Source: Flavobacteriia bacterium 40-80 (lineage in GTDB: Bacteria > Bacteroidota > Bacteroidia > Flavobacteriales_D > Crocinitomicaceae). Taken from it: DNA of 64,000 bases. Positions 256 through 35,475 of this stretch are shown one piece after another. The position numbers and the translations under genes are program-made. The notes under the pieces were generated by a model. It was not told where the DNA came from. It ran no database searches and saw only the letters and a program-made list of their open reading frames with translations. Location of the stretch: assembly GCA_001899145.1 (NCBI GenBank), contig MKVF01000018.1, forward strand, positions 124,001-188,000, in the 5' to 3' direction. Position 1 is the first letter of the stretch. Every line of letters begins with the position of its first letter.

Positions 256-1782
256 ATGGCTGGCGAAACACATAAGCTGAAGGACAAACAGGCAGTCAAG
301 CGCTACGATGAATTAATCCAGCGGATCACGGCTCACAGTCAGATCAATCCTTTTGAGACTGACAAGGAAAAGAATGTCCGAATCTCAAAAGCAAAAGCAG
401 ACTTCAAGTATTTCGTTGAAACCTACTTCAAACACTACGCAGAGAGCGAAACTCCTTTTTTTCACATCCGGATAGCAAGAAAAGTACGGCGGAACAAGAA
501 ATACAAAGGCTGGCTAAAGTGGGCGCGCGGACATGCTAAATCAGTAGTTGCTACTGTACTGCTTCCGTTATGGTTGTGGATCAATGATGACATTAAATAC
601 ATGGTCGTTGTTGGGCAGACGGAAGATAAAGCAAAAATTCTGCTTAGTGACATTCAGGCAGAGTTCGAATACAACCAACTACTGATTAACGATTTCGGTG
701 TTCAGAAAGGCACTAATAACAAATGGGAAGAAGGGTATTTCGTCACCAATTCCGGCTTCAAGGCAAAAGCGCTCGGAATGGGACAGGATCCGCGCGGATT
801 AAGAACAGTTGCTGATCGGCCGGACTATATCGTCGCGGATGACTGGGAAGGAAAAGATACAGCCAAAAATCCGAAACGCCAGGATGAATATGCCGAATGG
901 TTCCTGCGAGGAGTGATCCCGACAATGGATAACAAAAACAGGCGTGTCCTTATCGCGCAGAACCACTGGACGCCAAGAATGATCTTTTCCAAGATCGTGG
1001 AAGAAAATTCCGGCTGGGATATCGACAGGCTTGACGGTTATGATCCGGTAACTTATATGCCTACCTGGAAGGAGAAGTACGACCGATGGTTCTTTAAAGA
1101 GATCGAGCAGGAAATAGGTACGATCAGAGCGTTAGCAGAGTATAATAATACACCACATATCGAAGGTAAGCTATTCCTGGACGAATACATCCAATGGTGT
1201 AAGCTTCCGCAGTTACGATCAATGACAGCTATCATAGGCCGCTGGGACGTAGCGTTTGCCGGCACAAAGACTTCCGATTATAATGCCGTCCGGATTTGGG
1301 GCTTAAAGGATGGTAAAAAATACCTGATCGACTGTTTTGTCAAGCAATCCAAAGTAAAAGAGCCACTGAACTGGATCGCCGATTTTCAATCACGGCTTCC
1401 TGAAGGAATTAATGTGCAGATAGGTTTTGAAGCGCAGTTCTGGAACGAAGAGATCTACCGGAACATTAAAGAAGTTGAGGAAGCTAAGAAGATCAGCCTG
1501 AACCTGGTTAAGATCGACCGCAGGAAAGGTAATAAGTATGATGACATCATTAAGATGTTGCCACAGTACCAGAATAGCCGGATCTATTACAATCACCATC
1601 TCCGATCACACAATGATACACAAGTTGGACTGGCACAGCTGAAGGGAATCGAGCCCGGCTACAAAACAAAAGACGATGCACCGGATGCAGATACCTACTC
1701 TTTCGATTACCTGGATGCTTTCGAACGGCACGACAGGAATCCAAACAGAACAGGGGGAACAAGAACAAACCGAAAATTTTAG
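256..1782 (+). CDS. Phage terminase large subunit (Mu Gp28-like)
   Basis: This is the DNA-packaging motor that would cut phage DNA and pump it into the prohead. A Walker-A-like loop, ARGHAKSVV, sits at about residues 90-98. A Walker B strand, YIVADDWEG, is at about 191-199 (D195/D196). A C-terminal RNase-H-like nuclease is marked by GRWDVAFAG and the downstream TSDYNAV (D331, D341). The length of 508 aa is normal for the family. The start follows the preceding stop by 5 bp, and the next gene begins 5 bp after the stop, so it belongs to a plus-strand head operon with the Gp36-like and portal genes. Confidence 0.92.
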   Translation: MAGETHKLKDKQAVKRYDELIQRITAHSQINPFETDKEKNVRISKAKADFKYFVETYFKHYAESETPFFHIRIARKVRRNKKYKGWLKWARGHAKSVVATVLLPLWLWINDDIKYMVVVGQTEDKAKILLSDIQAEFEYNQLLINDFGVQKGTNNKWEEGYFVTNSGFKAKALGMGQDPRGLRTVADRPDYIVADDWEGKDTAKNPKRQDEYAEWFLRGVIPTMDNKNRRVLIAQNHWTPRMIFSKIVEENSGWDIDRLDGYDPVTYMPTWKEKYDRWFFKEIEQEIGTIRALAEYNNTPHIEGKLFLDEYIQWCKLPQLRSMTAIIGRWDVAFAGTKTSDYNAVRIWGLKDGKKYLIDCFVKQSKVKEPLNWIADFQSRLPEGINVQIGFEAQFWNEEIYRNIKEVEEAKKISLNLVKIDRRKGNKYDDIIKMLPQYQNSRIYYNHHLRSHNDTQVGLAQLKGIEPGYKTKDDAPDADTYSFDYLDAFERHDRNPNRTGGTRTNRKF

Positions 1783-1787
1783 ACGCA

Positions 1788-2219
1788 ATGGACTTTTTAA
1801 CGATAAACGACTTTTTCAAAGTCATTCAGCCGGAAGAGCTGATTGATGTAGTAGGTGAATATGAAGATCCGACGGATCAGGGAGCTGTCATATTAGATGC
1901 GCTGGAGCTGGATGCGATCGGAGAAATGACCGGTTATCTGTCTATCCGCTATGATGCGGCAAAATGCTTTGATAGCACCACGGACAGGATTCCGATCATT
2001 ATTCAAAAGTGTGTGGACATTGTGCTATACAATGCCTACAGTGCTGTTGCTCCGAACAATATTCCAAAGCTTCGGACAACACGCTACGAAAATGCGGTGA
2101 ACTGGCTGGAGAAAGTAGCGAGCGGTTTTATCGCTCCGGATCTTCCAGTGAAAGAGGATCAGCCCAAAACACCCCTCAGATATGGCAGCTCGCAAACTAA
2201 AACAGACAACTTCTTTTAA
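1788..2219 (+). CDS. Mu Gp36-like protein (DUF1320 family)
   Basis: A 143-aa protein whose length, acidic N-terminal half and central pattern (EMTGYLSIRYD, then a helix and a segment ending NWLEKVASG) resemble the Gp36/DUF1320 family of Mu-like phages. These are thought to act in head-tail joining. It lies 5 bp after terminase and 2 bp before the portal gene, in the same operon. Family-level function is not well established. Confidence 0.75.
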   Translation: MDFLTINDFFKVIQPEELIDVVGEYEDPTDQGAVILDALELDAIGEMTGYLSIRYDAAKCFDSTTDRIPIIIQKCVDIVLYNAYSAVAPNNIPKLRTTRYENAVNWLEKVASGFIAPDLPVKEDQPKTPLRYGSSQTKTDNFF

Positions 2220-2221
2220 TC

Positions 2222-3445
2222 ATGGCAAAGAAACAAGCAAAACAAGCACCGGAAACGGCACAGCCAAAGCAACGCCCGGACAGACTGGTAACACGTATTA
2301 TCCGCAGCACTAATGCGCGGTCTAAAAAAGATATTCAGCAATGGCGTGTCGCGCTGCAGCAAGCAGAGAATGCCGATAACCCAAAGCGGATACTTCTTTA
2401 TAACATCTATAATGAAATTCTTATTGACGCGCATTTGTCTGCAGAAATCGAACGGCGTTTAAATGCACTGCTCGGAAATAAGTACGAATTGTATGACGAA
2501 GACGGAACCGCACAACCTGAAGCTTCAGCAATGATCAGAAAAGAATGGTACAGACAGCTGCTGCGCTGGGCATGGGAAACGATCTTATGGGGCCATTCGC
2601 TGGTTGAAATCGAAGCACTCACTCAGGATGGTTTAATCGGAAGCGTGAGACTGGTGAACCGCTGGCACGTTTACCCGGAACGTGGGATTGTGGCAGTAAA
2701 ACAAGGCGACGAAAATGGGATTGACTACAGATTAGACAAGAAGTATTCGCCCTGGTTGTTCGAGATCGGTGATCCGTACGACTTAGGTTTGCTCAACAAA
2801 TGTGTTCCTCATGTGATCTTTAAACGTTTTGCACAAAGTGCCTATTCAGAGTACTGTGAAGTGTTGGGGATTCCGCCACGGGTGCTCAAAACTGATGCAC
2901 TGGATCCGGAACACCTGAACCGCTCCGAAGACATGATGGCAAATATGGGTACAAACTCTTATGCTGTCATCGGAAAAGATGAAGAGATTGTTTTTGTGAA
3001 CGCTCAGGGCGGAGATGGTGAGATCTTTACCAATCTGTTTAAAATATCTTCAAATGAGATTTCCAAATTAATAGGTGGAGCTGTAATCGGAGAAGACTCG
3101 CAACAAGGATCAAGAGCAAAAGAACAGGTAGCTTATGATTTAAGCAAGTCCATCCAGCAAGCGGACAAGACAATGATTGAAAGTGTGATTAACGAGCAGA
3201 TCATTCCACGTCTTGTTGAAATGGGTTATCCGTTCGCAGGGTTAACTTTTGAATTTATCCGTGAAAAGAACCTGACTGAAGAACTGGATATGGCTTTGAA
3301 AATAGCACAGCAGTTTGATATGGATAAGGAAGGCATAGATTATATGAATCAGACGTTCTCTGTACCTGTTGTGAAGCAGAAACAAAATTCCGGGTTCGAC
3401 GGAGCAGCTCCTGAAGCTAAAGGGAACAGCTCTTTTTTCGGCTAA
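2222..3445 (+). CDS. Phage portal protein (Mu Gp29-like, DUF935), zero-frame product
   Basis: The portal ring at the capsid vertex, through which DNA is packaged. The 407-aa sequence has the DUF935 layout: N-terminal region with DAHLSAEIERRLNALLG, central GHSLVEIE, RWHVYPE, and a C-terminal segment with IGEDSQQGSRA and a late helical region. The zero frame stops with TAA at 3443-3445, directly after a T6C slippery run and before a GC-rich hairpin. The next coding frame has no start codon for about 230 bases, so a fraction of ribosomes probably shift -1 at 3433-3439 to make a portal-MuF fusion of about 838 aa. Confidence 0.9.
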   Translation: MAKKQAKQAPETAQPKQRPDRLVTRIIRSTNARSKKDIQQWRVALQQAENADNPKRILLYNIYNEILIDAHLSAEIERRLNALLGNKYELYDEDGTAQPEASAMIRKEWYRQLLRWAWETILWGHSLVEIEALTQDGLIGSVRLVNRWHVYPERGIVAVKQGDENGIDYRLDKKYSPWLFEIGDPYDLGLLNKCVPHVIFKRFAQSAYSEYCEVLGIPPRVLKTDALDPEHLNRSEDMMANMGTNSYAVIGKDEEIVFVNAQGGDGEIFTNLFKISSNEISKLIGGAVIGEDSQQGSRAKEQVAYDLSKSIQQADKTMIESVINEQIIPRLVEMGYPFAGLTFEFIREKNLTEELDMALKIAQQFDMDKEGIDYMNQTFSVPVVKQKQNSGFDGAAPEAKGNSSFFG

Positions 3446-3464
3446 GCCCCGATGCACTCGGGGC
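3433..3464 (+). other. Candidate programmed -1 ribosomal frameshift signal
   Basis: The heptamer T TTT TTC (3433-3439) sits in the correct phase for the portal frame (codons TCT TTT TTC). Six bases later comes a perfect 7-bp stem, GCCCCGA (3446-3452) with TCGGGGC (3458-3464), closing a 5-nt loop. The portal stop codon lies in the spacer. A slip of -1 enters the MuF frame, which is open from 3421. An AAAGGGA run at 3419-3425 could act as an upstream stimulator as in dnaX, though Bacteroidota use Shine-Dalgarno pairing weakly. Confidence 0.72.
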
Positions 3465-4737
3465 ACAGCTCGCAAAAACGTATGATCTTACTGCCGTAAC
3501 TGCAGCAAGCAATATCTTCAGTGACGATGAGCTGGAACGAATTGCACGGAAGTTTTTCAATGATAAGGGCGAACCCGTCGATGATGAACTTTGGAAAAAG
3601 AATTATTCCGAATTATCTAAAGCGATCGGAAAGGGTTATACCGTTGTAACAGACGAGCAGGATGTCCGGATGAATTACGAGCTGAAAAATAACGTTGCCG
3701 TCTTCGCTGCTTTCAAAGCCTGGCGCATGGGTGGAGATGTAAGCAATCTGCTTGTGGATGAAAATGGTAATAAAAAACAATGGGGCGAATTCCTGAAGGA
3801 TTACAAAAAGATAAATGGTGATTATAATGTTCACTGGTTATCTGCAGAATACAATCTGGCACAACGCCAGGCAAGCGCTGCACGTCAATGGCAGGACTGG
3901 CAGCGGGATAAGCATGTTTATCCAAACCTGGAATATATGCCTTCCAAAAGTGCTAACCCAAGTGAGCAGCACAAGCTCTATTACGGCATTATAAAGCCGA
4001 TTGATGATCCGATCTGGAATTATATTCTGCCTCCGAGCAGGTGGAACTGTGATTGCTGGTTAAAACAAACAAGGGAAGATCCTACCGAACATGACGTGGA
4101 AGTTCCGACACCACCTGCAGGAATTGTTGGGAATCCCGGAAAGACAGGAATGATTTTTTCACCGGATCATCCATACATACCGAAAAGCAAGGCTGAAAAG
4201 CAGGAAGTGCGGGAATCTTTCAATCAATTGCGAAATGCTTTGAATGAAGAGTACATTGATTTCAAGGCGAAAAAAGGAAAGGTGCGGGTGAGCATGAACG
4301 CAGATCCGGATGATTACCTGGACAACTTCCGGTACGCAAAAAATGTCAGCGATCAACATCCTGGAGTGTTCAAAATTTTGGCGCATTCAAACAAACAAGG
4401 TGTTAAAAACCCGGAGTTCAACTATAAAGGGTTTGTCGGTGACAGAACCGCGGCAAAAACATCCTATCCGGAGAAGTACATCAACAATAGCTTTTCGGAT
4501 AAAATGGGTGTAAAAAAACAGCTCAGAAGCTTTGATAAAACATTCATTGCGCTGGACTTCGGTAATATTCTTAATGAAGACAACGTGCTTAGGGCTGCTC
4601 AACAATTGTATGGAAAGTTCAAACGTTATGAGACCGTTCATTTTGTAATCTGCAGGAAAGGTAACAAAACAGTTATACTATCTAATGGCAGCAGCATTAA
4701 GGATATGAGCGATAAAATCACAAAAGGACTGCTATAA
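3439..4737 (+). CDS. MuF-type minor head protein with C-terminal nuclease-toxin-like domain, probably made by -1 frameshift
   Basis: The frame is open from 3421 to 4737, but its first ATG is at 3670 and there is no in-frame ATG, GTG or TTG before it. The 3481-3670 part nevertheless reads as coding (AASNIFSDDELERIARKFF). The first half matches the Mu gpF/MuF minor head fold, including IWNYILPPSRWNCDCW. After a charged linker the last roughly 130 residues (from about DPDDYLDNF) look like a BECR/CdiA-CT-type nuclease: ILAHSN, then FVGDRTAAKTS, and a run of strand-helix units ending FVICRKGNKTVIL. Such MuF-toxin fusions are known in phages. The toxin assignment is inference from pattern only. Confidence 0.78.
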   Translation, partial: RLSPDALGAQLAKTYDLTAVTAASNIFSDDELERIARKFFNDKGEPVDDELWKKNYSELSKAIGKGYTVVTDEQDVRMNYELKNNVAVFAAFKAWRMGGDVSNLLVDENGNKKQWGEFLKDYKKINGDYNVHWLSAEYNLAQRQASAARQWQDWQRDKHVYPNLEYMPSKSANPSEQHKLYYGIIKPIDDPIWNYILPPSRWNCDCWLKQTREDPTEHDVEVPTPPAGIVGNPGKTGMIFSPDHPYIPKSKAEKQEVRESFNQLRNALNEEYIDFKAKKGKVRVSMNADPDDYLDNFRYAKNVSDQHPGVFKILAHSNKQGVKNPEFNYKGFVGDRTAAKTSYPEKYINNSFSDKMGVKKQLRSFDKTFIALDFGNILNEDNVLRAAQQLYGKFKRYETVHFVICRKGNKTVILSNGSSIKDMSDKITKGLL

Positions 4738-4752
4738 AATAACAGTCCTTTT
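4722..4752. terminator. Intrinsic terminator overlapping the MuF stop
   Basis: A perfect 10-bp inverted repeat, AAAAGGACTG (4722-4731) with CAGTCCTTTT (4743-4752), closes an 11-nt loop and overlaps the end of the MuF frame. A-tract and T-tract flanks make it plausible in both directions. It would separate the capsid-assembly genes from the following completion genes. Confidence 0.6.
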
Positions 4753-4801
4753 GGGGCGGGATTGGCAATGCCGCTCCCTATATTTACAAATATACAAACA
4801 A

Positions 4802-5284
4802 ATGGCTGATTTCAAAAACATTGATAAAAAAATAGCTAATCTGGAACGATACATCCGGACAGAGCTGCCTACCATTATAGGCGTGGAAGGAGTTAACCAT
4901 TTCAAAGAATCGTTCCAAAACGAAGGGTTCACCGATCGAAATCTACAAAAATGGCCTCAGGTAAAAAGAAGAACGGCGACATCACCCTGGTATGGGTTTA
5001 AATACGGTTCCAACAAAATATCTAACGCAGCCACCAGTAGAAAGATTCTTACGGGTGAATCAGGCGCACTGGCAGATTCCATACGATGGAAGCTATACGC
5101 AAATGGAATCCGATTTATTGCCGCCACTAAATACGCCAAGATTCAAAATGAAGGAGGTGAGGTGAAGGTATTCGGCCGGGCAACCAAAAGAATTCCGGCA
5201 AGGAAGTTTATGGGAGATTCTGAAAAGCTTAGAAAGCGGATTGTTGACATAGTAATTAAGGACTTTAAACGTATAATGAAATGA
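4802..5284 (+). CDS. Phage virion morphogenesis protein (Mu gpG-like)
   Basis: A 160-aa protein when started at the ATG at 4802; a TTG at 4751 would add 17 poor residues. The pattern HFKESFQNEGFTD..LQKWPQVKRRT, then ILTGESGALADSI and a late ATKYAKIQNEGGEV, is typical of the Mu gpG / tail-completion family. Its C-terminus carries RIPARKFMGDS, the 'P.R.F.G' signature of these proteins. Its last codons overlap the next start (ATGA at 5281-5284), which implies translational coupling. Confidence 0.85.
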   Translation: MADFKNIDKKIANLERYIRTELPTIIGVEGVNHFKESFQNEGFTDRNLQKWPQVKRRTATSPWYGFKYGSNKISNAATSRKILTGESGALADSIRWKLYANGIRFIAATKYAKIQNEGGEVKVFGRATKRIPARKFMGDSEKLRKRIVDIVIKDFKRIMK

Positions 5285-5766
5285 TTGTTTTAAATGAAAT
5301 TTACACGGTATTAAAATCCCGTTTAAAAGAGCTTCAGGAGATAAAAAAAATTGACTGGTACAATAATCAGTATAACAACACGGAAGAGGAGAAAGCAACT
5401 CGTTATCCTGTAGTATATGTTGAATTCATTGATCCTATTTCGTGGATCCAGAACGGTGATAAGTTTCAACATGGAACTGCAACCATCCGACTACACTGTG
5501 TAGTATATGATCTGCAGGACACGCCGGTGCGCTGCATGGAGTTTGTTCAGAAGATCTACGAGCACATTAACAGTAAGAGCTTGTATGATGCTACCGATTT
5601 TCAGCTAACTACAGAGCTGGTACGCCAGGCAACAACATTTCCAAAAAGGTATAATCAGCTAAAAGTGGTGATGATGGATTTTGTCTGCGAAATATTCGAC
5701 ATCAGCAATATGCCGGAAGGAATAGCCGTACAGCCGGTTGAATTTATTATCTCGACTTCCAGTTAA
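5281..5766 (+). CDS. Phage head-tail/tail-terminator-like protein
   Basis: A 161-aa alpha/beta protein coupled by a 4-bp overlap to the gpG-like gene. The order of a helix (NEIYTVLKSRLKEL), a short strand with YPVVYVEFIDPISW, then HGTATIRLHCVVYD and a final MDFVCEIFD resembles small tail-terminator or head-closure proteins. No catalytic motif is visible. It is the last gene of the plus-strand block in the window and meets the minus-strand block by a 20-bp tail-to-tail overlap. Confidence 0.6.
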   Translation: MIVLNEIYTVLKSRLKELQEIKKIDWYNNQYNNTEEEKATRYPVVYVEFIDPISWIQNGDKFQHGTATIRLHCVVYDLQDTPVRCMEFVQKIYEHINSKSLYDATDFQLTTELVRQATTFPKRYNQLKVVMMDFVCEIFDISNMPEGIAVQPVEFIISTSS

Positions 5767-6064
5767 AGTGTGGAAATTTCTTTGACAGTTCCGGAAGTGT
5801 CGGCTTCTCATTGACAATCTGTGACAACTGATCTACACTGGCCGATAACACTACTATAATACGAGGCGCTGTCAGATAGAATTCTTTTTCCAGATGTGCA
5901 ATACAGTCGTCATATCGGTAACGGTTAATTTCCGCATGAAAATAATAACGGTGTAACAGCGCTTCGTTGCGATCAGGTAGGAAATAATTGCGGGGCCGTT
6001 GCTTTCTTACAGCCGGCTGTTGTTCAGAGAATAAATCGGAAAATAGAGATTGTTGCCCACGCAT
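5747..6064 (-). CDS. Conserved phage-type hypothetical protein
   Basis: A 105-aa basic protein beginning MRGQQSLFSDLFSEQ. The central part (RNEALLHRYYFHAEINRYRYDDCIAHLEKEFYLTAPRI) looks like a helix-turn-helix of the kind found in small phage DNA-binding proteins. It overlaps the plus-strand gene end by 20 bp. Function unknown. Confidence 0.6.
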   Translation of the reverse strand: MRGQQSLFSDLFSEQQPAVRKQRPRNYFLPDRNEALLHRYYFHAEINRYRYDDCIAHLEKEFYLTAPRIIVVLSASVDQLSQIVNEKPTLPELSKKFPHFNWKSR

Positions 6065-6140: not shown

Positions 6141-6353
6141 TTATTTTACGGTCTTTTCAACCTCTTCAGCAATTTTTGCAAGGTTGATTTCGATTCCCTT
6201 TTCTTTTGCTATCTGTTGTAAAACCTGCAACTGCATACTTTGCATTATTCGTAACCTCTTTGTATATTTAAGCATACTGTTCATCCACATGAACGCATAT
6301 ATCACTAAACAAAGAGAGATAATTAAAATTAGTATTCCTATATTCGATTCCAT
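6141..6353 (-). CDS. Small single-pass membrane protein
   Basis: The 70-aa protein starts at the ATG at 6353; an upstream GTG at 6374 is less likely. Residues about 4-24 form one clear membrane segment (IGILILIISLCLVIYAFMW). A basic, helical cytoplasmic tail follows, ending in EEVEKTVK. It resembles small phage holin or anchor proteins, but nothing specific identifies it. Confidence 0.6.
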   Translation of the reverse strand: MESNIGILILIISLCLVIYAFMWMNSMLKYTKRLRIMQSMQLQVLQQIAKEKGIEINLAKIAEEVEKTVK

Positions 6354-7242: not shown

Positions 7243-7539
7243 TTATTGATTTATTGGTTTCCATTTACGTTTTTGTAAGCTAATACCGTACTGTTTTACG
7301 GTGTCTGTTAATATCGTAATTTCGCTTTTTTTACTTTTTTCAAACTCGTTAATTACTTCAGCAAGTTTGCTAAGTGAATCACAAGCAGTGTTACAAACGT
7401 GGTATATATTTTTTAGTGCTTCCGTCAATTCATCTACTGTAAATCTTGTCACGATTGAAAGATGTTCTAATTCTTTATTTATTCTATCCGAATCAAATTC
7501 TGAATATCCTAATAATGTCCAATCCATATCAATATTCAA
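7243..7539 (-). CDS. Hypothetical helical protein
   Basis: A 98-aa, largely helical protein (NKELEHLSIVTRFTVDELTEALKNIYHV..). Its start overlaps the stop of the upstream gene by 4 bp, so it is co-translated with the putative DGR accessory gene. It is not recognisably the usual DGR accessory protein Avd. Function unknown. Confidence 0.5.
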   Translation of the reverse strand: MNIDMDWTLLGYSEFDSDRINKELEHLSIVTRFTVDELTEALKNIYHVCNTACDSLSKLAEVINEFEKSKKSEITILTDTVKQYGISLQKRKWKPINQ

Positions 7540-7826
7540 CTAAATTCATAATACTTTCCAACCTGGACAATAGTCGTACTGAAAGGAAAGCTGTCTTTTG
7601 AAATCTGGTTCAGTGTGTTGATCAACACAGTAGATCCGGTAAACAATACATGCTTCATTTCATTAAACTCTATTTGAATCTGCGCATATTCTCCTTTGAT
7701 TTTAGATGGAGAAATAATGTAGGCATGAACAATTATTTCCTTGTTTAAAATCCAGTTTATCTGAACTTTGTTACCGATGAAATGATTAGTTTCATTTCTT
7801 ATTCCGAGATCACTGAACTTCTTCAT
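7536..7826 (-). CDS. Putative DGR-associated small beta-rich protein
   Basis: A 96-aa protein overlapping the 3' end of the reverse transcriptase gene by 17 bp. It has strands (VQINWILNKEIIVHAYIISPSKI, YAQIQIEF) followed by HVLFTGSTVLINTLNQI and a final TTIVQVGKYYEFS. I associate this type with DGR loci of Bacteroidota, where a small OB-like protein often sits beside the RT. This is recollection plus context and is not proven by a motif. Confidence 0.55.
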   Translation of the reverse strand: MKKFSDLGIRNETNHFIGNKVQINWILNKEIIVHAYIISPSKIKGEYAQIQIEFNEMKHVLFTGSTVLINTLNQISKDSFPFSTTIVQVGKYYEFS

Positions 7827-8775
7827 ATACCTTTAATTTTTTGATTAGATTTTTTGTGTCGGCATGCTTTGCCCAACCCATATACCCGGCAATAGATGCT
7901 TTGTTTTTTCGTTTCTTGAGCATCCGTGCAAAATTCTTTTTAATGCTCTTCCGGAGTAAGATGTGCGTGTGGTAGAATTTATAGCCTATAAAATCAATGC
8001 CGCGGGATGCAACGGGAAATACCTGGTAATTATCCTTTACCTGTAAGTTCAGCTCTTCGTTTAAATACCGTTTAATGGCTGCTAAAATACCGTGTAAAAA
8101 AGGTTTATTATCAGAGAGGATCACAATATCATCTGCATATCTGAAGTAGTATTTCACCTTCAGCTCTTCTTTGATCCAGTGATCAAAATAACACAGGTAG
8201 AAGTTTGCAAAATACTGACTAAGATAATTTCCAATAGGAATACCCGGTGCGCTGGCAATAATCTCATCCAACGACCATAACAGATCCTTGTCTTTTATTT
8301 TTCGACGAAGAAGCTCTTTTAAAATGTCATGATCCACGCTCGGATAAAACTTCTTAATATCCAGCTTCAGACAGTAACGTGTACCTTCTTTATCCTTCAG
8401 GGACTTTTTGAGCCTCCGGAAAGCTGCGCCTATTCCCATACCTTTAATACAGGAATACGTATCGCTTGTGAATGTGGAGACAAATAATGGTTCCAGGATA
8501 TTCATAATAGCGTGGTGGACGATGCGGTCAGGATAATAAGGAAGGCTATAAACAAGACGCTCTTTTGGTTCAAAAACTGAAAACGTTGAATAAGCGGATG
8601 TTTTATAGCCTTTTTCCTGCAGTAATTTATGCAACAGTAAAATGTTCTCCTCACGATGCAGATCATGGGCTTTTACACCGTATTGTTTTGACTTACCCTT
8701 TCTTGCTTTTTGATCTGCCAGGATAAGGTTTTCAATACTGATCACTTGTTGAAATAAATTACCTTTTCTTTTCAT
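7810..8775 (-). CDS. DGR-type reverse transcriptase
   Basis: A 321-aa compact reverse transcriptase with finger and palm motifs only. LKLDIKKFYPSVDHD carries the first catalytic Asp (about 139). GIPIGNYLSQYFAN (about 178-191) is the motif-4 variant typical of DGR enzymes, where group II introns have QG. FRYADDIVIL holds the catalytic YADD (213-216). There is no endonuclease or X/maturase domain. A template repeat lies 100-165 bp upstream, and two target genes with matching variable repeats precede it on the same strand. It would copy TR RNA into adenine-mutagenised cDNA that replaces the VRs. Confidence 0.95.
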   Translation of the reverse strand: MKRKGNLFQQVISIENLILADQKARKGKSKQYGVKAHDLHREENILLLHKLLQEKGYKTSAYSTFSVFEPKERLVYSLPYYPDRIVHHAIMNILEPLFVSTFTSDTYSCIKGMGIGAAFRRLKKSLKDKEGTRYCLKLDIKKFYPSVDHDILKELLRRKIKDKDLLWSLDEIIASAPGIPIGNYLSQYFANFYLCYFDHWIKEELKVKYYFRYADDIVILSDNKPFLHGILAAIKRYLNEELNLQVKDNYQVFPVASRGIDFIGYKFYHTHILLRKSIKKNFARMLKKRKNKASIAGYMGWAKHADTKNLIKKLKVYEEVQ

Positions 8776-8872
8776 CTCCTTTGTTTTTCGGTCATCTTCG
8801 GAAATCCTACCAATGCCCTTTTGTAAACTTTATCTTTTGCACTGTTGGCAAGGTCTATGATGCAATTTCAAA

Positions 8873-8940
8873 GTTGTGGGCTGAGAACCGAGTTCGTGTT
8901 CGTGTTCGTGTAATTCGAATCGTTGAACTGGAAACCTGAA
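8873..8940 (-). repeat. DGR template repeat (TR)
   Basis: A 68-bp stretch between the first target gene and the RT gene, matching both variable repeats. Read on the minus strand it would encode SGFQFNDSNYTNTNTNSVLS and is rich in AAC and ACG codons (21 adenines in 68 bases). By hand alignment all 11 differences to VR1 and all 14 to VR2 fall on template adenines, and none on C, G or T. Confidence 0.93.
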
Positions 8941-8983
8941 CAACGAACCACCGGCTACAGCTACATCATACAACCTGATTGTT

Positions 8984-9358
8984 TTATTTTTTCGGATTGT
9001 AAAGCTCCTTAAAGATCGGAGCTGTCAACTCCGCGAATTGTTTCGATTTCGCGGTTGTCTGTTGGGAATGGAGTGGGCCGAGAACCGAGCCCGTGTTCGT
9101 GTCCGCGTAATCCGAATCGTCGAACCGGAAACCCGAAGGATTATTAACCCAGAACCAGGACTCATATTTATCTTGTGATCGATCGTCATAATCAGGTTCC
9201 CAACCATCCCGAACAGCATCGCTGATCACTAACGATTCAAATACTTTCTCCAGGATTGGAACATACTGTTCCGGGATTCCCGTAATGACAGGTTTTGTGT
9301 TGGGAGCGATATTCATTTTCTCGAATGCCTGCTCTACCGTGTTAATCGTTTTTGACAT
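8984..9358 (-). CDS. DGR target protein 1
   Basis: A 124-aa protein with a helical N-terminal half (EQAFEKMNIAPNT, EQYVPILEKVFESL). The compact C-terminal half begins KYESWFWVNNPSGFRF. The variable repeat encodes residues about 75-96 (GFRFDDSDYADTNTGSVLG), giving 11 adenine-derived changes from the template. It is not a long tail fibre. The WF..SGF.F..SDY module resembles short DGR targets seen in Bacteroides-type elements. It follows target 2 after a single base, so the two are co-transcribed. Confidence 0.88.
   Translation of the reverse strand: MSKTINTVEQAFEKMNIAPNTKPVITGIPEQYVPILEKVFESLVISDAVRDGWEPDYDDRSQDKYESWFWVNNPSGFRFDDSDYADTNTGSVLGPLHSQQTTAKSKQFAELTAPIFKELYNPKK
9070..9137 (-). repeat. 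DGR variable repeat 1 (VR1)
   Basis: 68 bp matching the TR at 8873-8940, with 11 differences all at TR adenines: nine A to G, one A to T, one A to C. The invariant block CTCGGTTCTC near its 3' end on the coding strand, followed by G/A-GCCCAC, is the probable homing-initiation region. Confidence 0.92.
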
Positions 9359-9359
9359 A

Positions 9360-9842
9360 TTACTTCTTTTTTAGAATGATTACATTTTTAAATTCACCTT
9401 CAAAGGTTCTTCCTACATAGTCAGTCACTTCCTCTGATGGAAGCCAAAGGAGTGGGCCGAGAACCGAGCGCGTGTGCGCGTTCGAGTAATCCGAACCGAG
9501 GAACCGGAAACCCGAAGGATTAGCGGGTGAAATTTCTAAATCAAACCAAGGAAACCATTTGCGCTGATTAGTGTTATTAGGATCTAATTCCTCAGCTTCT
9601 TTTTGAAACAGCTCACAGATCAGCAATACTCTGTCAAGTGCCTGACGTGCTGCAATCCGTGGATTATCGCTGGTGATCTCATAGTCCTTTGGATCCTGCG
9701 ACATTTCCTTACATACTTCCTCAAAGGTTTTAATTCTACCTACTAAAGGCAGTGACTTTGGTTTGAACTTAATGACACCTGATTCAGTGTTAAAACTATC
9801 TACCTGAAAGCCTTCAGGGATTTGAATTTTTAATTGTTCCAT
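9360..9842 (-). CDS. DGR target protein 2
   Basis: A 160-aa paralogue of target 1 in its C-terminal half: NQRKWFPWFDLE...NPSGFRFLGSDYSNAHTRSVLGP, followed by LWLPSEEVTDYVGRTFEGEF. The C-terminal 'PSEE..YVG..F' is the usual ending of this small target family. The N-terminal half (EGFQVDSFNTESGVIKFKPK) is beta-rich and unrelated to target 1. VR2 codes for about residues 109-131. It lies 1 bp upstream of target 1 and just downstream of a small membrane protein gene. Confidence 0.88.
   Translation of the reverse strand: MEQLKIQIPEGFQVDSFNTESGVIKFKPKSLPLVGRIKTFEEVCKEMSQDPKDYEITSDNPRIAARQALDRVLLICELFQKEAEELDPNNTNQRKWFPWFDLEISPANPSGFRFLGSDYSNAHTRSVLGPLLWLPSEEVTDYVGRTFEGEFKNVIILKKK
9449..9516 (-). 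repeat. DGR variable repeat 2 (VR2)
   Basis: 68 bp aligned to the TR with 14 differences, all at template adenines, giving G, C and T. It is more diversified than VR1 and includes changes to C and T at AAC codons (for example AAC to CGC). Six positions are altered in both VRs. Confidence 0.92.
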
Positions 9843-13900: not shown

Positions 13901-14509
13901 TTATATTATTCCGTATAGATCAGCCTTCTCATCGTGTATTATCATAGTTCCGCCGGGACAACGTCCGCCGATAAATACCTGAAGACCCTCTATTCGCATG
14001 ATTATTTTCGCTAATTTTTTAACTAGCCTGCCAGCTGCTGTTGCAGGTTCTTTTCGGTCTTCGTGAGATATGAATATGATTAGGATGTTTTCGTGTTTAC
14101 GCATGAAATCAACGATTCCATTTCTCTTGAATTCATCCATATACACTGTCATATTATCTATCACAACTATTCTTGCCGCATTACGCTGTTTCAGCTTTTC
14201 GGTCAATTTTTCGATTGTGATGTATGGTAAAAAACCGATCTTGTTGGTAGCAGGTATTTCCGCTCTCTTACATGCCTCGACAAAGAGCGCATCAGTTCCT
14301 TCCTCTGCGGACACATACAACACTTTTTCAAAGTTGCTCAGATACTTCACCAACGATAATGTAAATGCAGTTTTACCATGTTTTTCCTTACCTTGTATTG
14401 ACCAAACACCGTTCTTTGGGGCATTGCCAAAAATTTCCAACCATTTTCCGTCGAAATCAAAACAAGAATGTTTCATGTCATACAAGTTTCTGGCTGATAA
14501 AATTTTCAT
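13901..14509 (-). CDS. RecA/RadA-like P-loop ATPase of the phage early region
   Basis: A 202-aa ATPase: WSIQGKEKHGKTAFTLSL is a Walker A loop of the DnaB/RecA kind (about 37-48), VLYVSAEEG gives the glutamate-bearing strand, and RIVVIDNMT is Walker B. FISHEDRKEPATAAGRLV resembles the sensor segment of RadA-like proteins. It overlaps the MuB-like stop by one base. In Bacteroidota Mu-like phages such a protein commonly follows MuB and may aid replicative transposition. That last point is inference. Confidence 0.7.
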   Translation of the reverse strand: MKILSARNLYDMKHSCFDFDGKWLEIFGNAPKNGVWSIQGKEKHGKTAFTLSLVKYLSNFEKVLYVSAEEGTDALFVEACKRAEIPATNKIGFLPYITIEKLTEKLKQRNAARIVVIDNMTVYMDEFKRNGIVDFMRKHENILIIFISHEDRKEPATAAGRLVKKLAKIIMRIEGLQVFIGGRCPGGTMIIHDEKADLYGII

Positions 14510-15381
14510 TAGTTCATTTTGATTAAGGTTTCCAAATAGCGAAGTGTACCTTCTTTCTTCATTGCCTTGGTTACGAATTGGCGAACCGCTGTTTTATCAG
14601 AAACATTAACACCTGCTACATCTTCAAGCAGCTGCATATAGAATTGATCACGCTCATGTTTTCCTGTCGGAGTAACAGAGATGAACTCATCAGAGAACCG
14701 GGAAAATATTTCACGATATCCAACCTTTTCATTTTGAATTCCGCGTCTGATTTTAGCACGCAATCCATCCGCACCGATCATATACCAGGCACAAGAGCCG
14801 GAAGTAGCATTCCAAAGCTCTTTTAATTCTAAAAATGCGTTATAATCCAAATCACCTGCCTCATCCAATGCGATGATTGGCATTTCAATGAGGTTTAAAA
14901 AGTATTTCAAGTTGCTTTTAACATCAATGTATTTGCCTGTTGATTCAACGCCTACCGTTTTAGCAAGTGTTCGGATAAATTGCTGCTTTGTTTTTGCCTG
15001 AGAACAGTCTAAGTAAAAAGCATTTTTCATTGTACGGATAACATGCTTTACGCAAAATGTTTTGCCGATACCACAATCATCCACCAGTATCATTGAGGTA
15101 TTATTCTGCTGGCAGAATTTCAATGAATCTTCTATCTGCTCATATACAACTGTTCGGGCAACCTTCCATTTGCTTTCCTTCAGTTGTACGTCCATCATTC
15201 GACCAATGGTTAACCACTGAGTATCTGAAAGGATTCGTTCTAATTCTCCTTTTTTCAGTCTTGAATAAATGGGGGCAGAAGTACCTATTGATTTCGCAAA
15301 ATCAGAGTCTGAACCTCCGTAGTTCTCACGTGCTGACAAAACAGCATCTCTTACCTTTTCTTTAAATAAAGTTGTTACCAT
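14509..15381 (-). CDS. MuB-like transposition ATPase
   Basis: A 290-aa AAA+ protein with an N-terminal helix-turn-helix (GGSDSDFAKSIGTSAPIYSRLKKGE) as in MuB. Walker A is DDCGIGKTFC (about 101-110) and Walker B is IIALDEAGDLDY (D173, E174). MuB-type proteins bind target DNA and deliver it to the MuA transpososome while giving target immunity. It lies 2 bp downstream of the transposase gene, the canonical A-B order. Confidence 0.9.
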   Translation of the reverse strand: MVTTLFKEKVRDAVLSARENYGGSDSDFAKSIGTSAPIYSRLKKGELERILSDTQWLTIGRMMDVQLKESKWKVARTVVYEQIEDSLKFCQQNNTSMILVDDCGIGKTFCVKHVIRTMKNAFYLDCSQAKTKQQFIRTLAKTVGVESTGKYIDVKSNLKYFLNLIEMPIIALDEAGDLDYNAFLELKELWNATSGSCAWYMIGADGLRAKIRRGIQNEKVGYREIFSRFSDEFISVTPTGKHERDQFYMQLLEDVAGVNVSDKTAVRQFVTKAMKKEGTLRYLETLIKMN

Positions 15382-15383
15382 AG

Positions 15384-17483
15384 TTAGAAATTATTTCGCC
15401 ATCCATTTGATGCAGGACGGTCCTGATTGATTATTACAAATTCATCCTCATGCTCCGGTAGTTGCTCAACTTCCGTTTCTCTTGGTTGGAATCTATTTAA
15501 GCCCGGTATTTGAAACCGTACTTTAGGTTCTGGCTGTTGTTCTTTACCAATAACCAATACCTTGTCGATTGTTTTCTTTTGAAGCTTTGCAAACGCTTCT
15601 ACAGATGCCACATATTTTGATTGTATCTCACGAGCTGCACGATCTGCATCTGTCTGCTCAGCCTGAGCACGATTGTAGCGTGGTATAGGTAGCAGTTCAC
15701 AAACATATTCTCCGTCTAAGAATGCAATCGCTTTAAGAACGGATCCATCGTTAGCATCCAGCCAATATACCTGAAGGGGCTGACCTTCAATTTTCTTCAT
15801 TTTGGCAATCAGAGATTCACCTGTCAGAATCTGACCATCATCTCCAATCATTCGTTTTCGGCCTTGTAATATGATATAGCCTACATTGCAGGAAGTTTTT
15901 TGTTCATAACCGATATAAGGAAGTATGGCACGCCAGTTTGTTTCAGGTACATCCGGGTTTTGCATCTCAAGGAAATACTCAAACCTTGATAACTCTGCAT
16001 TTTGGGCAGACGGCATATTATTCCAGTCTTCAATATTTTTTAAACGTGCATCAATCAACTGTTCCAGAGGAAGAACAGGAACATGATGATTCCCTTCCTG
16101 GTTTGATTCTGATTTTGCAAATGGTCTGGCTAACCAGCCTAATTCTTTTTTCTCAACCTCGTAACGCAGTTTTCCAAATTCCCTTTCAATATACTTTCCA
16201 CGAGCATTATTAGCTTCAATTCTAACTTTTTGAAACATTGCACCTTCGCGAAGGAACGTTCCTTTGAAAGATGAGTTCAAAGAACTTTCACACTCTAATT
16301 CATAAGGAATAGGCAAATTCCAATCGGTATAATTCCTCACCAATTGGCGGTAAAAATCCAGTATAATACCATCTTTTGTTGCTCCGTAAACAAACGCTGT
16401 AAAACATCCGGAAGCAACGTCACAACCGATATAAAACCAAATTCGTTTTTTAATGGTTTTCGCTTTTCCATTGACAGTGACCTTTTCCTCATATTCAAAT
16501 GGTGGCTGCCGGTCGTCGATGGAAAGTAAGGATCCTGAAAATATTGGCAGATCCATTTCGTGATGAGGTTTGAATAACTGCATATTTCGCTGGCGGTCAC
16601 CGCCACGAATCTGATGTGTGGCAATAGTATTCTCCCAATCTGACAAGTAGGACATAATAGTGGATCGGCTGATTTTCTTGAAATCTTTCGGATTGTACAT
16701 TTCTCCGGTAGATGTGTTAATTACTTCTAAATAGCCGGATAAGAAGCTATCATATTGCCGGGAAACCTCTGTCATTGTCGGTTTGTAGTCTTGTCCGGCG
16801 AACAGGTCATTGAAAAATTTAATAAAAACGGAATCTACCTTGCGGGCATTATCGTTGTTTCTTCTGCCATCAATGAGCGATGTATAACCGTCTTTATCAT
16901 ACTTTGAAAACTTCTTTCGAAGACCGTCTGGAGAGATAGGCAGTGAGTGAGGAACCTCTGTGAAATTGTTGACTTCTGTTGACAGGATAATCCAAATATC
17001 CGAACAGGAAGAATTCATGAATTTCCTAAAAGCCTTTCTGTTTATATATACTTTTTTTACCGTATTCAAAACAGATGCGTTATAGGTGTATTCTTCAATT
17101 TTGGGAAGATCCAATCGCCGGCGATCTTTTCCTTCTGTGTATTCCTGGGAAAAAAATCTGTAAGCTTTCTCATCCCATTCATATTGCTTTGAGAAATAGC
17201 TTTGTCGAACATTTTCCGGAGCATTACCAAATCTATGGACAAGTTGCTGCTGCCATTCACGGCACAACGAGTTAAATTCGACCAAGGACGGGTTTTTTGC
17301 AAATGGTTTTCTAAGTTGTTTTTCACAGCAAGTAATAGAATCCATTCGTTTTTTGAAAGCTCTATAAGAGATCAAACGAAGGCTATCTGGGTGACATGAC
17401 TTATTTTTATCTTCTACAATAATATAAGCCACTTTCACACCCAGTTTACCTTCGTAATATTCGTATGGACTTTCTTTTTGCAT
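15384..17483 (-). CDS. MuA-like phage transposase
   Basis: A 699-aa transposase with N-terminal DNA-binding region, a central DDE-type integrase core and a C-terminal beta-barrel with a proline-rich tail. The first catalytic Asp is in LLSIDDRQPPF (about 323). The strand FYIGCDVASGCFTAFVYG follows. The second acidic position falls in YELECESSLNSSF, where an E seems to replace the usual D. The third is in ARGKYIEREFG (about 433). It carries out strand transfer for lysogenic integration and replicative transposition. It sits behind a small HTH gene under the early promoter. Confidence 0.92.
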   Translation of the reverse strand: MQKESPYEYYEGKLGVKVAYIIVEDKNKSCHPDSLRLISYRAFKKRMDSITCCEKQLRKPFAKNPSLVEFNSLCREWQQQLVHRFGNAPENVRQSYFSKQYEWDEKAYRFFSQEYTEGKDRRRLDLPKIEEYTYNASVLNTVKKVYINRKAFRKFMNSSCSDIWIILSTEVNNFTEVPHSLPISPDGLRKKFSKYDKDGYTSLIDGRRNNDNARKVDSVFIKFFNDLFAGQDYKPTMTEVSRQYDSFLSGYLEVINTSTGEMYNPKDFKKISRSTIMSYLSDWENTIATHQIRGGDRQRNMQLFKPHHEMDLPIFSGSLLSIDDRQPPFEYEEKVTVNGKAKTIKKRIWFYIGCDVASGCFTAFVYGATKDGIILDFYRQLVRNYTDWNLPIPYELECESSLNSSFKGTFLREGAMFQKVRIEANNARGKYIEREFGKLRYEVEKKELGWLARPFAKSESNQEGNHHVPVLPLEQLIDARLKNIEDWNNMPSAQNAELSRFEYFLEMQNPDVPETNWRAILPYIGYEQKTSCNVGYIILQGRKRMIGDDGQILTGESLIAKMKKIEGQPLQVYWLDANDGSVLKAIAFLDGEYVCELLPIPRYNRAQAEQTDADRAAREIQSKYVASVEAFAKLQKKTIDKVLVIGKEQQPEPKVRFQIPGLNRFQPRETEVEQLPEHEDEFVIINQDRPASNGWRNNF

Positions 17484-17663: not shown

Positions 17664-17689
17664 TACTTTGTTTTTGTTAAGTATTTTAG

Positions 17690-17722
17690 CAAATATATAC
17701 AAGTTATCTCGTTTAATGCAAA
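17690..17722 (-). promoter_or_regulatory. Early promoter of the transposition operon
   Basis: Read on the minus strand, TTTG (17722-17719) is followed 21 nt later by TATATTTG (17697-17690), an exact match to the Bacteroidota -33/-7 pair TTTG / TAnnTTTG. Transcription would start near 17683, about 20 nt before the first minus-strand gene. The -33 element overlaps the repressor gene's first codons, suggesting direct competition. Confidence 0.6.
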
Positions 17723-18405
17723 TTTATATGCAAGAAAAATCGCTTATTAAGCAAAATATTTTACAATACATTGATTTTAAAGGTATTTCTAAATATAAAT
17801 TTTACCAAGACAGTGGTATCACAAGAGGAATATTAGATCAAAACAATGGAATGTCTGAAGAAAACACAACGAAATTTCTCGCTTGTTTTCCAGAAGTTAA
17901 TCCTGCATGGCTACTTACCGGAAAAGGGCCGATGTTGTTAAAAAGTTACTCATCATTAGAGAATGAAAATGATATAAGCACAGTAAATGAACCGGTTGCT
18001 TTCTCTGGTAAAAAGAGAGGTATTCCTCTATTACCTATCGAAGCAATGGCAGGAGTGTTTAAAGGGGATATTCAGGTAATGGAATATGAATGTGAGTACA
18101 TCTATATCCCAATGTTTAAAGATGCTCATTTTTTCATGCCGGTATTGGGTGATAGTATGTACCCAACTTATAATAATGGAGATATTGTTGCATGTAAAAA
18201 ATTGGAGTCCTGGTCTTTTTTTCAAATAGGAAGAGTATATGTGATATACACATCTCAAGGAGCAATTATCAAGCGGGTCATGAAAGGAAGCTCAGAAGAC
18301 TATCTATTGATAGTAAGCGACAATGAAGATTACCCGCCATTTGAACTGCCTAAAAATGAAATATTGGGTGTTGCGTTGGTTATTGGCGGGGTTTGGGTGG
18401 AGTAA
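17716..18405 (+). CDS. LexA/S24-type phage repressor
   Basis: A 229-aa repressor from the ATG at 17716; 17728 is an equally good start. The N-terminal helix-turn-helix reads GISKYKFYQDSGITRGIL. The C-terminal S24 peptidase fold has MPVLGDSMYPTYNNGD with the nucleophilic Ser and AIIKRVMKG with the general-base Lys. It would hold the prophage silent and could be lost by RecA-stimulated self-cleavage after DNA damage. It is divergent from the transposition operon across a roughly 50-bp control region. Confidence 0.88.
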   Translation: MQIYMQEKSLIKQNILQYIDFKGISKYKFYQDSGITRGILDQNNGMSEENTTKFLACFPEVNPAWLLTGKGPMLLKSYSSLENENDISTVNEPVAFSGKKRGIPLLPIEAMAGVFKGDIQVMEYECEYIYIPMFKDAHFFMPVLGDSMYPTYNNGDIVACKKLESWSFFQIGRVYVIYTSQGAIIKRVMKGSSEDYLLIVSDNEDYPPFELPKNEILGVALVIGGVWVE

Positions 18406-33888: not shown

Positions 33889-34110
33889 GTTTATAATCAA
33901 TTCTTTAATAAAATTTCAGATTTAAGATAGGCCACGAATTTATCAGAGTTTATAAGTATATAGGAAATCGATGGATATTCCGGATCCAATTACGTTTAAA
34001 TATTCTTGATAGAATTCTGCTATAAACTCAAAATGCTGACTGCATCAATAAGTGGGCAGTCAGCATTTTTTAGGAATAAAGTGTAGATTTTTTCCTTTTG
34101 GTCTACGTTT

Positions 34111-35475
34111 CTATTTTGGATTATTTTTTACTTTCCGGTAATCTTCAAATAGTTGGTAGTTATCTTTTTGGTCGGTTATGTTATAACTCGGTTTCTTTTG
34201 AAGAGTATTCAAGTAGTTTAAATATGCAGACATAGACTTGAAAGCAATTGCCATATCGTAGTCAAATGAATATTCGCCCTCATCAAAGCTTTCTGTTCCT
34301 TTTAAGTTTCTGAAATATCTTTTCCAGTTGAGATCATTATTAGAGTAAAAAATGTTTTTAGAAATATCTTTCGCTGGTAATAAAAACGATTTAAACTTTT
34401 GCTGCGCTGGTAAATGACAACTCATACAGGATGTCATTTGAAGTCTTTCGTATTTTTTTCCGTCAACGATCCCATCTAAGGCGATGGCACCATCATTCGG
34501 TCCGCTTAATCTACCTCCCCAACCTAATGTTTCTCTGCTATAGTAAGGAGCTGAATTGTTAATCCATGTTTCTTTTAATAACGGGTTTTGCTCATAATAT
34601 ACCTGGCTGATATCGGTATTCACTTCAGGATCATTCCCCCACATTCCTCCTAGTGGAATGAATTTGTCCAGTATATTTTTTGATTTGATGGATTTATCAT
34701 ATACCAATGTGGAGAACATCCAACCGGTAGCTGGTGCATTTTTAGAATCTTTGACAATTAAGTCTATTTGAAATAAGCTGACAGTATGATACTTGTATGT
34801 CTTATCGAAAGTATTGTTATTATATATCTGAAATTCAGGAGCTCCTTCCATATCACTCCACTTATCACTATTCAGGCTTGAAAAAGCCAACTTCAGAATT
34901 ACAGAACCTTCTCTGAACTGTCCTTTTTCTTTTTCCAGATCAATTTTCCCGCTTTTGGTTAACGGAACCATACCATCCGTTCCGAATATTTCTCCTAATG
35001 TAAGTGCAGCTAGTGAATCATATAAAACGAGGACATAACCTAACTGGTCTTCATTTACATTGCTGAATGTTCCTTTTTTATTATCATTACCACTGTAACA
35101 TCCCAAGATTGGCTCGCGGGTATTTCCAATCCAGGGTTCGTGAAACCATCCTTCTCTTTTTGCATTCCAGCTTTTATTGTCAAGTATGAATTTTTCGAGA
35201 GCAGGTGTTACGTGATATTTTAATTTTTCGATGTAAGATTCCGCGTTATGAATAGTTAAAAGTTCGGAATCTGGCTTATAAATTGTGTGGGGAAGTTTCT
35301 GTGGGTATTCACAGTTGATTTCAAACAATTTTCCGTGATTTTTAGGAATCGAATCACTATGACTCTTAAATGCTATTTTTTCAGCAGGAATAATGGATCT
35401 TTCTTCTGATGTTGAACAGGAATACAGCCCGGATAGAAGAATAAAAGCAAGCAATGATTTGAAATTTATTTTCAT
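34111..35475 (-). CDS. Lipoprotein with a single c-type heme motif
   Basis: Start at ATG 35475 (MKINFKSLLAFILLSGLYSCS) gives a lipoprotein signal peptide with the lipobox Cys at residue 20 (454 aa). One CxxCH (TSCMSCHLPAQQ) lies near residue 340. The rest (WNAKREGWFHEPWIGNTREPILGCY, FTDTDGMVPL-like stretch) resembles large periplasmic cytochrome-like proteins of Bacteroidota. It would be anchored in the outer or inner membrane and bind one covalent heme. It appears monocistronic. Confidence 0.7.
   Translation of the reverse strand: MKINFKSLLAFILLSGLYSCSTSEERSIIPAEKIAFKSHSDSIPKNHGKLFEINCEYPQKLPHTIYKPDSELLTIHNAESYIEKLKYHVTPALEKFILDNKSWNAKREGWFHEPWIGNTREPILGCYSGNDNKKGTFSNVNEDQLGYVLVLYDSLAALTLGEIFGTDGMVPLTKSGKIDLEKEKGQFREGSVILKLAFSSLNSDKWSDMEGAPEFQIYNNNTFDKTYKYHTVSLFQIDLIVKDSKNAPATGWMFSTLVYDKSIKSKNILDKFIPLGGMWGNDPEVNTDISQVYYEQNPLLKETWINNSAPYYSRETLGWGGRLSGPNDGAIALDGIVDGKKYERLQMTSCMSCHLPAQQKFKSFLLPAKDISKNIFYSNNDLNWKRYFRNLKGTESFDEGEYSFDYDMAIAFKSMSAYLNYLNTLQKKPSYNITDQKDNYQLFEDYRKVKNNPK

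Follow-up and report, generated by a model that had tools for sequence, protein, structure and literature searches.

A diversity-generating retroelement in the early block of a Mu-like prophage from a Flavobacteriia bacterium, with two small and possibly intracellular target proteins

Phage diversity-generating retroelements (DGRs) are usually explained by receptor switching, and the locus described here raises the question of whether their hypermutation may also be spent on proteins inside the infected cell. The locus lies in a stretch of 64,000 nucleotides from Flavobacteriia bacterium 40-80 (GenBank assembly GCA_001899145.1, contig MKVF01000018.1, positions 124,001 to 188,000), hereafter the window. 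A preliminary description had placed there, within a Mu-like prophage, a DGR-type reverse transcriptase (RT), one template repeat (TR) and two variable repeats (VRs); all of these coordinates hold. This study found that the window DGR is genuine and, as judged from its sequence, most likely functional. With a probability of about 0.5, its targets are two small, probably non-structural proteins of the phage early block that act as intracellular binders, and an RT clade devoted to such early-block proteins suggests that hypermutation is of advantage inside the infected cell as well. The core of the element consists of the following features:

7810-8775, minus strand: DGR reverse transcriptase, a 321-aa open frame (RVT_1 PF00078, E 7e-20; PHROG reverse transcriptase, E 1e-118)
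8873-8940, minus strand: TR, 68 nt with 21 A
8892-8924, minus strand: TR core, 15 A over 11 codons, in which A changes never yield a stop
9070-9137, minus strand: VR1, the variable repeat within T2, with 11 TR differences, 11/11 at template A
9449-9516, minus strand: VR2, the variable repeat within T1, with 14 TR differences, 14/14 at template A
8984-9358, minus strand: target T2, a 124-aa open frame that hosts VR1 (phrog_11581, E 4e-5)
9360-9842, minus strand: target T1, 160 aa, a T2 paralogue that hosts VR2 (phrog_11581, E 5e-8; no Pfam match at E 0.1)

The adenine-only character previously reported for the 11 and 14 TR/VR differences was upheld on realignment. Within the repeat boundaries set by the preliminary description, the random-placement probability that all differences fall at A is 2e-7 for VR1 and 9e-10 for VR2. 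The comparison of VR1 with VR2 is a stricter test, and here all 8 differing sites are also at template A (P 3e-5). Because seven changed positions carry an identical base in VR1 and VR2, the 25 differences, though all at A, are not independent events; some of the seven could be differences that have become fixed between TR and VR. Neither this sharing nor the small size and early-block setting of the targets figured in the preliminary description. Once TR, VR1 and VR2 were masked, the closest remaining site in the window had 20 mismatches where the template is not A. A degenerate pattern made from 65 of the 68 TR positions, with A as N, has exactly three matches in the 3.52-Mb genome, namely TR, VR1 and VR2, and this search gave no fourth repeat copy across the whole genome; the reversed pattern, used as a control, had zero matches. 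An inverted repeat of the BPP-1 type was sought 3' of the VRs: the window has a 7-bp short repeat after VR1 and a 5-bp one after VR2, and across 190 VRs stem-loops or inverted repeats are in weak excess (P 0.07 when compared with an upstream control and 0.003 when compared with shuffles).

The DGR machinery appears to work in relatives, as judged by the adenine-only footprint between near-identical phages. In this comparison, VR spans were taken from a TR/VR scanner, yet every mismatch was counted. Since the scanner admits only runs without non-A mismatches, its own figure of 0 non-A changes in 10,090 is true by construction and is not evidence. A metagenome copy (L042) and a metagenome-assembled genome (MAG) of Chitinophagaceae (L096) differ at 21 sites in 12,942 bp, and 21/21 lie in the two VRs at template A. 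In L056/L057, 13/13 differences are in VRs at template A; in L057/L063, 12 of 13 are in a VR, 12/12 of these at template A. A disrupted RT, or non-A differences as frequent as those at A in related genomes, had been named as findings that would speak against a DGR; the RT frame is intact at 321 aa and A is dominant (21/21, 13/13 and 12/13). Other pairs are less clean: L071/L072 have 11 differences in one VR, all at A, and 14 more clustered at 1827-2030, far from the DGR; L050/L055 have 15, with nine in a VR (9/9 at A) and six outside, of which three are at the contig edge; L055/L063 have 25, with 23 in VRs and 21 at A; and L055/L057 have 12, with 11 in one VR, two of these at non-A template positions, and one just outside. 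A template-T label in L056/L063 was rejected as a spurious repeat pair, the same VR giving 12/12 at A in L057/L063. Five further pairs (L050/L056, L050/L057, L014/L015, L019/L020 and L146/L164, the last without marked VR spans) show one to four differences each and none in a VR.

The A changes in these pairs lie 14-53 nt from the repeat 3' end. Among sites changed in both VRs, one common base is found at 157/170 in the last 10 nt and 85/87 beyond 60 nt, and at 60/147 at 21-30 nt; common bases near the repeat ends are taken as fixed flanking differences and not as mutagenesis. In two elements the template itself is altered. The TR of L036 (2734-2813) differs from that of L130 at 8 core sites, each A in L130, and the L080 TR (5751-5810; L103 is the same element) departs from the L115 TR at 8 core sites, each A in L115. 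This suggests that a TR may occasionally overwrite itself, which would be a dead end for the element.

The template is embedded in a structured RNA, with a 12-pair P1 stem over the TR and then two hairpins before the RT start. Each element was modelled with covariation in 45 relatives:

8963-8975, minus strand: P1 stem 5' arm, 8 nt after the T2 stop codon
8852-8863, minus strand: P1 stem 3' arm, which closes over the TR
8838-8850, minus strand: P2 hairpin, 3/4 pairs kept in the window
8790-8818, minus strand: P3 hairpin, 14 nt before the RT start codon

The model was built from a chosen subset, 45 of 94 distinct TR regions, and is assessed here on the very alignment from which it came, a circumstance in its favour. 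In that alignment, 96.9% of cells are paired compared with 33-45% in slid controls. Changes on both sides of a pair occur in 18 of 23 pairs and 211 cells, versus 12 and 61 when shuffled, and neither value was reached in 500 shuffles; the margin is large despite the derivation of the structure from the same alignment. The window keeps 22/23 pairs. The Rfam family RT-17 (RF03020) matches the window at 8772-8855 on the minus strand with 28 bits, short of the gathering score of 40.4, and exceeds that score in 3/8 small-target loci and 4/7 other loci searched. RT-17 corresponds to P2, P3 and the stretch up to the RT start of the present template RNA; it differs in that its 95-position model stops short of the P1 stem that encloses the TR. 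The literature searched contained no paper tying RT-17 to DGRs. A covarying RNA around the TR offers a test bed for template choice and ties RT-17 to DGR templates. RT-17 was seen to coincide with the 3' half of the DGR template RNA in the window, L064, L051, L060, L150, L117, L141 and L121.

What kind of proteins, then, are T1 and T2? They match phrog_11581, a family with no assigned function that is matched by 52/54 T2-type proteins. Small targets of this kind typically measure 115-200 aa, of which about 27-30 residues follow the VR. When their profiles were compared with those of 20 C-termini from classic tail targets, only the VR module aligned (over 27 columns at E 3e-7 and 30 columns at E 1e-7), and the classic-target VR module in turn matches Mtd of BPP-1 at residues 336-372 (E 0.0013). 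The hypervariable loop is therefore common to both kinds of target, while the scaffold is not recognisably so. When a full C-type lectin domain around the VR was sought, homology to classic targets was confined to the 27-30-residue VR module and no fold match was found, but the VR part is of low confidence in the models. The T1 structure model has a mean predicted local distance difference test score (pLDDT) of 83, falling to about 50 at residues 111-130. Foldseek returned no solved fold for T1 under E 0.001; a fold comparison of T2 with 23 chains gave no Z of 5 or above; and neither protein has a PDB sequence match under E 0.02. The only two BFVD matches of T1 under E 0.001 are both unnamed viral proteins. 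Pfam matches among 53 T1-type proteins, ZapA (one, E 0.004) and 2CompART (one, E 0.009), were taken as chance. The target family had no match in the plasmid collection, and the window genome has no further member (the profile finds T1 and T2 only; next match E 0.3).

Among 93 TRs, 0/912 A-bearing core codons could mutate to a stop in the target frame, compared with 4/1069 and 79/918 in the other two frames. The window core has 10 variable codons, corresponding to about 1e9 DNA and 8e8 protein variants. Two target domains are fused into a single open frame at L082:4918-5796 and at L124:8928-9788. In Bacteroides phage BT-TP2, L171:8001-8312 is an N-terminal target-family module near the record end and beside a regulator, the VR part being outside the match; the small-target label of this locus stands for the N-terminal match only.

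The Mu-like nature of the prophage, of which the window contains a part, with one template and two target genes, was confirmed; a MuA/MuB pair is present together with head genes, and phrog_310, phrog_296, TerL, portal and repressor were all matched:

15384-17483, minus strand: MuA-type transposase (phrog_310, E 9e-31), with the RT 6.6 kb downstream on the same strand
14509-15381, minus strand: MuB-type DNA transposition protein (phrog_296, E 2e-32)
17668-18405, plus strand: phage repressor (phrog_4, E 2e-23), divergent from the early block
256-5284, plus strand: head/connector genes (TerL, portal, minor head protein, neck; PHROG matches), convergent with the DGR block

The minus-strand block extends from the transposase down to about position 6141, contains T1, T2, the TR, the RT and a 96-aa gene, and faces the plus-strand head genes. 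To the left of the window (L089; C18:104001-124000), further genes on the minus strand, named by reading, are presumably head and tail genes. The virus record L005 equals the window where they overlap, and its tape-measure match maps by arithmetic to the corresponding L089 frame. Beyond the tail end of the prophage, L089:702-4590 (C18:104702-108590) contains what we take to be an AbiE-type pair and an ATPase. A transposase was found in 14 of 42 longer virus records, in 14/14 upstream on the RT strand at 4.4-7.6 kb. A tape-measure match was found in 13 of the 42 (10 over the curated cut-off) and is 5.7-31.2 kb from the cassette in every case; the remaining records may be fragments or other phage kinds. 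Baseplate_J, used as a tail marker, was found in 0/42 and is uninformative. Tail-fibre targets are thus unsupported by position, as measured from the transposase and the tape-measure gene. In three loci that are not Mu-like in look (L091, L098 and L108), the cassette is flanked by genes that, named by reading, we take to encode a repressor, recombinase, primase or helicase.

To place the element among its relatives, IMG/VR was scanned with the RT (373 relatives, best 80 kept), as were named genomes (80 of 100 relatives kept). A TR/VR pair is present in 72/80 of the IMG/VR relatives kept; of the eight without one, seven are records that begin no more than 310 bases from where the RT starts, and the last is L080, with its adenine-depleted template. 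VR-bearing frames number two in 55 loci, three in 10 and one in 6 (71 loci); of these 146 frames, a few spurious, none is longer than 292 aa. The named genomes kept comprise 37 with small targets, 28 of classic form and 15 without a pair found. Repeats of the classic form measure 55-139 nt and mostly lie at the end of a long protein; in L135 the frame has 201 aa. When 15 of the 37 small-target genomes were searched whole, 36 family copies were found; 35 lie upstream of the RT at no more than about 1.6 kb, and the other is at a distance of about 11 kb. In a draw from the window's order, 2/299 genomes have the family, one being the window's own, and the RT occurs in the same two; in a draw from the phylum, the family occurs in 3/395 genomes, each also with an RT. 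One of three family copies in G602 is 10.6 kb from the RT. The sole copy in G647 is 38 kb from it, between genes that we take to be recombination-related. Carriers among the named genomes include Pedobacter, Niastella, Flavobacterium, Chryseobacterium and Sphingobacterium, and cultured carrier hosts are available for seeking the partner of the variable loop. L116 (Dyadobacter sp. CY261) has one TR and four VR-bearing places, of which one is about 5 kb upstream of the RT and another about 7 kb downstream, and in L120, a Bacteroidetes MAG, both VRs were found 8.2-8.6 kb upstream of the RT.

The window RT shares one tree with the RTs of classic TR/VR cassettes. This tree was made by a quick method from 142 rows, with target labels taken from stretches of at most 6-10 kb on each side. 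It contains a clade of 103 rows (SH-aLRT 99), of which 99 are small-target, four are unlabelled and none is classic or tail-target. Two more small-target RTs (L131 and L140) fall outside the clade. In L137 and in LoVEphage, a prophage compared below, a single TR serves a tail-type target plus a remote member of the small-target family, and both are possible intermediates between tail and early targeting. Apparently, a widespread DGR lineage has been retargeted from tails to small early-block proteins.

The architecture, the adenine-only changes, the footprint in close relatives, the RNA covariation and the early-block position are direct observations, and the mechanism is well supported; its purpose we infer. 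The TR would be transcribed within an RNA closed by the long-range P1 stem and followed by two hairpins. The RT would copy the TR with errors at adenines, and the cDNA would replace the VR core of T1 and T2. The two proteins would then be expressed early and function as intracellular binders, whose variable surface may be reselected as factors of the host or of rival phages vary, defence proteins being the likeliest of these. Several points weigh against this reading. Early timing is read from gene order only. The VR part of the T1 and T2 models has a pLDDT near 50, and the tail genes of the window prophage, as we take them to be in L089, are on the DGR strand, though behind opposite-strand head genes. 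Moreover, the window is identical to two metagenome copies, L005 and L006, over 12,963 and 11,103 bp, both VRs included, so that recent activity is unseen in the window element. The earlier proposal that the prophage can rewrite two of its own genes is thus borne out in close relatives (21/21) and not in the window copy, which is invariant among three assemblies.

A broader proposal, advanced tentatively and at somewhat less than even odds, is that a DGR lineage has moved its targeting from tails into the cell. The RTs of this lineage would serve only one family of small early proteins, and the variable loop would be carried on a new, non-lectin scaffold; with about 1e9 intracellular binders per target, the system would be the phage counterpart of antibody diversification against host defence or rival phages.

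The best-surviving alternative, which we consider unlikely, is that T1 and T2 are small components of the virion (tail-tip adhesins, decoration proteins or injected proteins) whose genes lie apart from the tail genes, and that the DGR serves classic host-range switching. Tail proteins make up most of the viral targets in three DGR clades (PMC8144416). The VR module is homologous to the corresponding module of tail targets, which matches Mtd, and a virion protein needs no signal peptide. However, in 13/13 records with a match the tape-measure gene is 5.7 kb or more from the cassette, the cassette is repressor- or replication-linked in other phage types (named by reading), and the LoVEphage TR serves a tail protein and, separately, the small-target family on the other strand.

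T1 and T2 could instead work in the lysogen to exclude superinfecting or rival phages, their diversification keeping pace with these competitors, although we regard this as rather improbable. It is in line with the prophage setting, the two or three tandem copies, and the G602 copy (L178) that stands by itself one gene past a divergent repressor; yet the cassette is downstream of the transposition genes, and Mu transposition genes are expected to be silent in a lysogen. The identity of the window, L005 and L006, both VRs included, would also be expected of a fossil whose repeats were kept after diversification ended. Open RT and target frames, 22/23 RNA pairs kept and active relatives make this quite improbable, and the three identical assemblies may be one strain or site. 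Finally, chance repeats, or ordinary gene duplicates with an adenine bias by chance, as the paralogy of T1 and T2 might suggest, are ruled out by a TR outside both target genes with all differences at A, the three-match genome pattern and the 21/21 relatives.

The closest known parallel to the intracellular reading is in the Quimbyviridae. Benler et al. (2021) described a second DGR target in this group as non-structural and among defence genes, earlier known phage targets having been structural (PMC8008677). LoVEphage is the same kind of prophage, both aligning with CP011531 (PMC8008677, PMC8525569). Window T1 gave no match, but a search with the T1 of a relative led to a LoVEphage homologue at MW660583 33613-34197, carrying a 113-nt VR (34004-34116) with 19 differences from the TR at 49389-49500, all at A. 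It belongs to the same target family and stands among methyltransferases and a tRNA ligase; from its gene neighbourhood, it would be Quimbyviridae ORF 80/84. In those phages, by contrast, a tail collar protein is a further target of the same TR and the RT is in the tail module, whereas in the present group no tail target was found, the cassette is in the early block, two or three tandem family members are targeted, and the TRs are 59-96 nt (93/94; one 219-nt value is an artefact).

Hankyphage, a Mu-like Bacteroides phage, also has a DGR in a transposable Bacteroidota phage; it differs in its 117-bp repeats, in a VR at residues 2188-2225 of a large C-type lectin-domain protein and in a small ORF near the RT that was likened to Avd (PMC6199706). 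BPP-1 (Mtd, Avd, bRT) shares adenine mutagenesis and a structured spacer after the TR (PMC12875486). Unlike in BPP-1, the targets here are not tail fibres by position, the VR ends some 27 residues before the C-terminus, and no Avd (PF05635) match was found among the 10 window proteins scanned, the 96-aa protein included. Roux et al. (2021) distinguished 24 clusters of DGR targets, among them viral clusters whose class is unknown (PMC8144416), and Yan et al. (2019) reported that multi-VR cassettes cluster on the RT tree and lean to Proteobacteria (PMC6642488). Phages with two, larger targets are described from Faecalibacterium (PMC11792537) and among gut phages (PMC10743442). In the literature searched, with few subscription papers covered, no DGR lineage dedicated to early phage proteins was found. 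The best phage matches of the window RT are RTs of crAss-like phages (50-58% identity), one of which, LMMB, has been published as a DGR (PMC7290462).

One more gene accompanies the RT:

7536-7826, minus strand: conserved 96-aa gene, a candidate accessory protein that overlaps the RT end (phrog_19665)

A homologue lies on the RT strand in 128/164 RT loci, upstream instead of downstream in two (L149 and L168), and on this pattern the protein is a candidate accessory factor. The gene has no convincing match in Pfam, PDB or NCBIfam and no PDB match under E 0.6. NCBIfam matches of its family were taken as chance (DUF3780 in 3/37 members, best E 0.004; 12 other models in one or two members each). 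Homologues of the 96-aa gene also follow the RTs of classic tail-target DGRs (L117, L121, L141 and L142).

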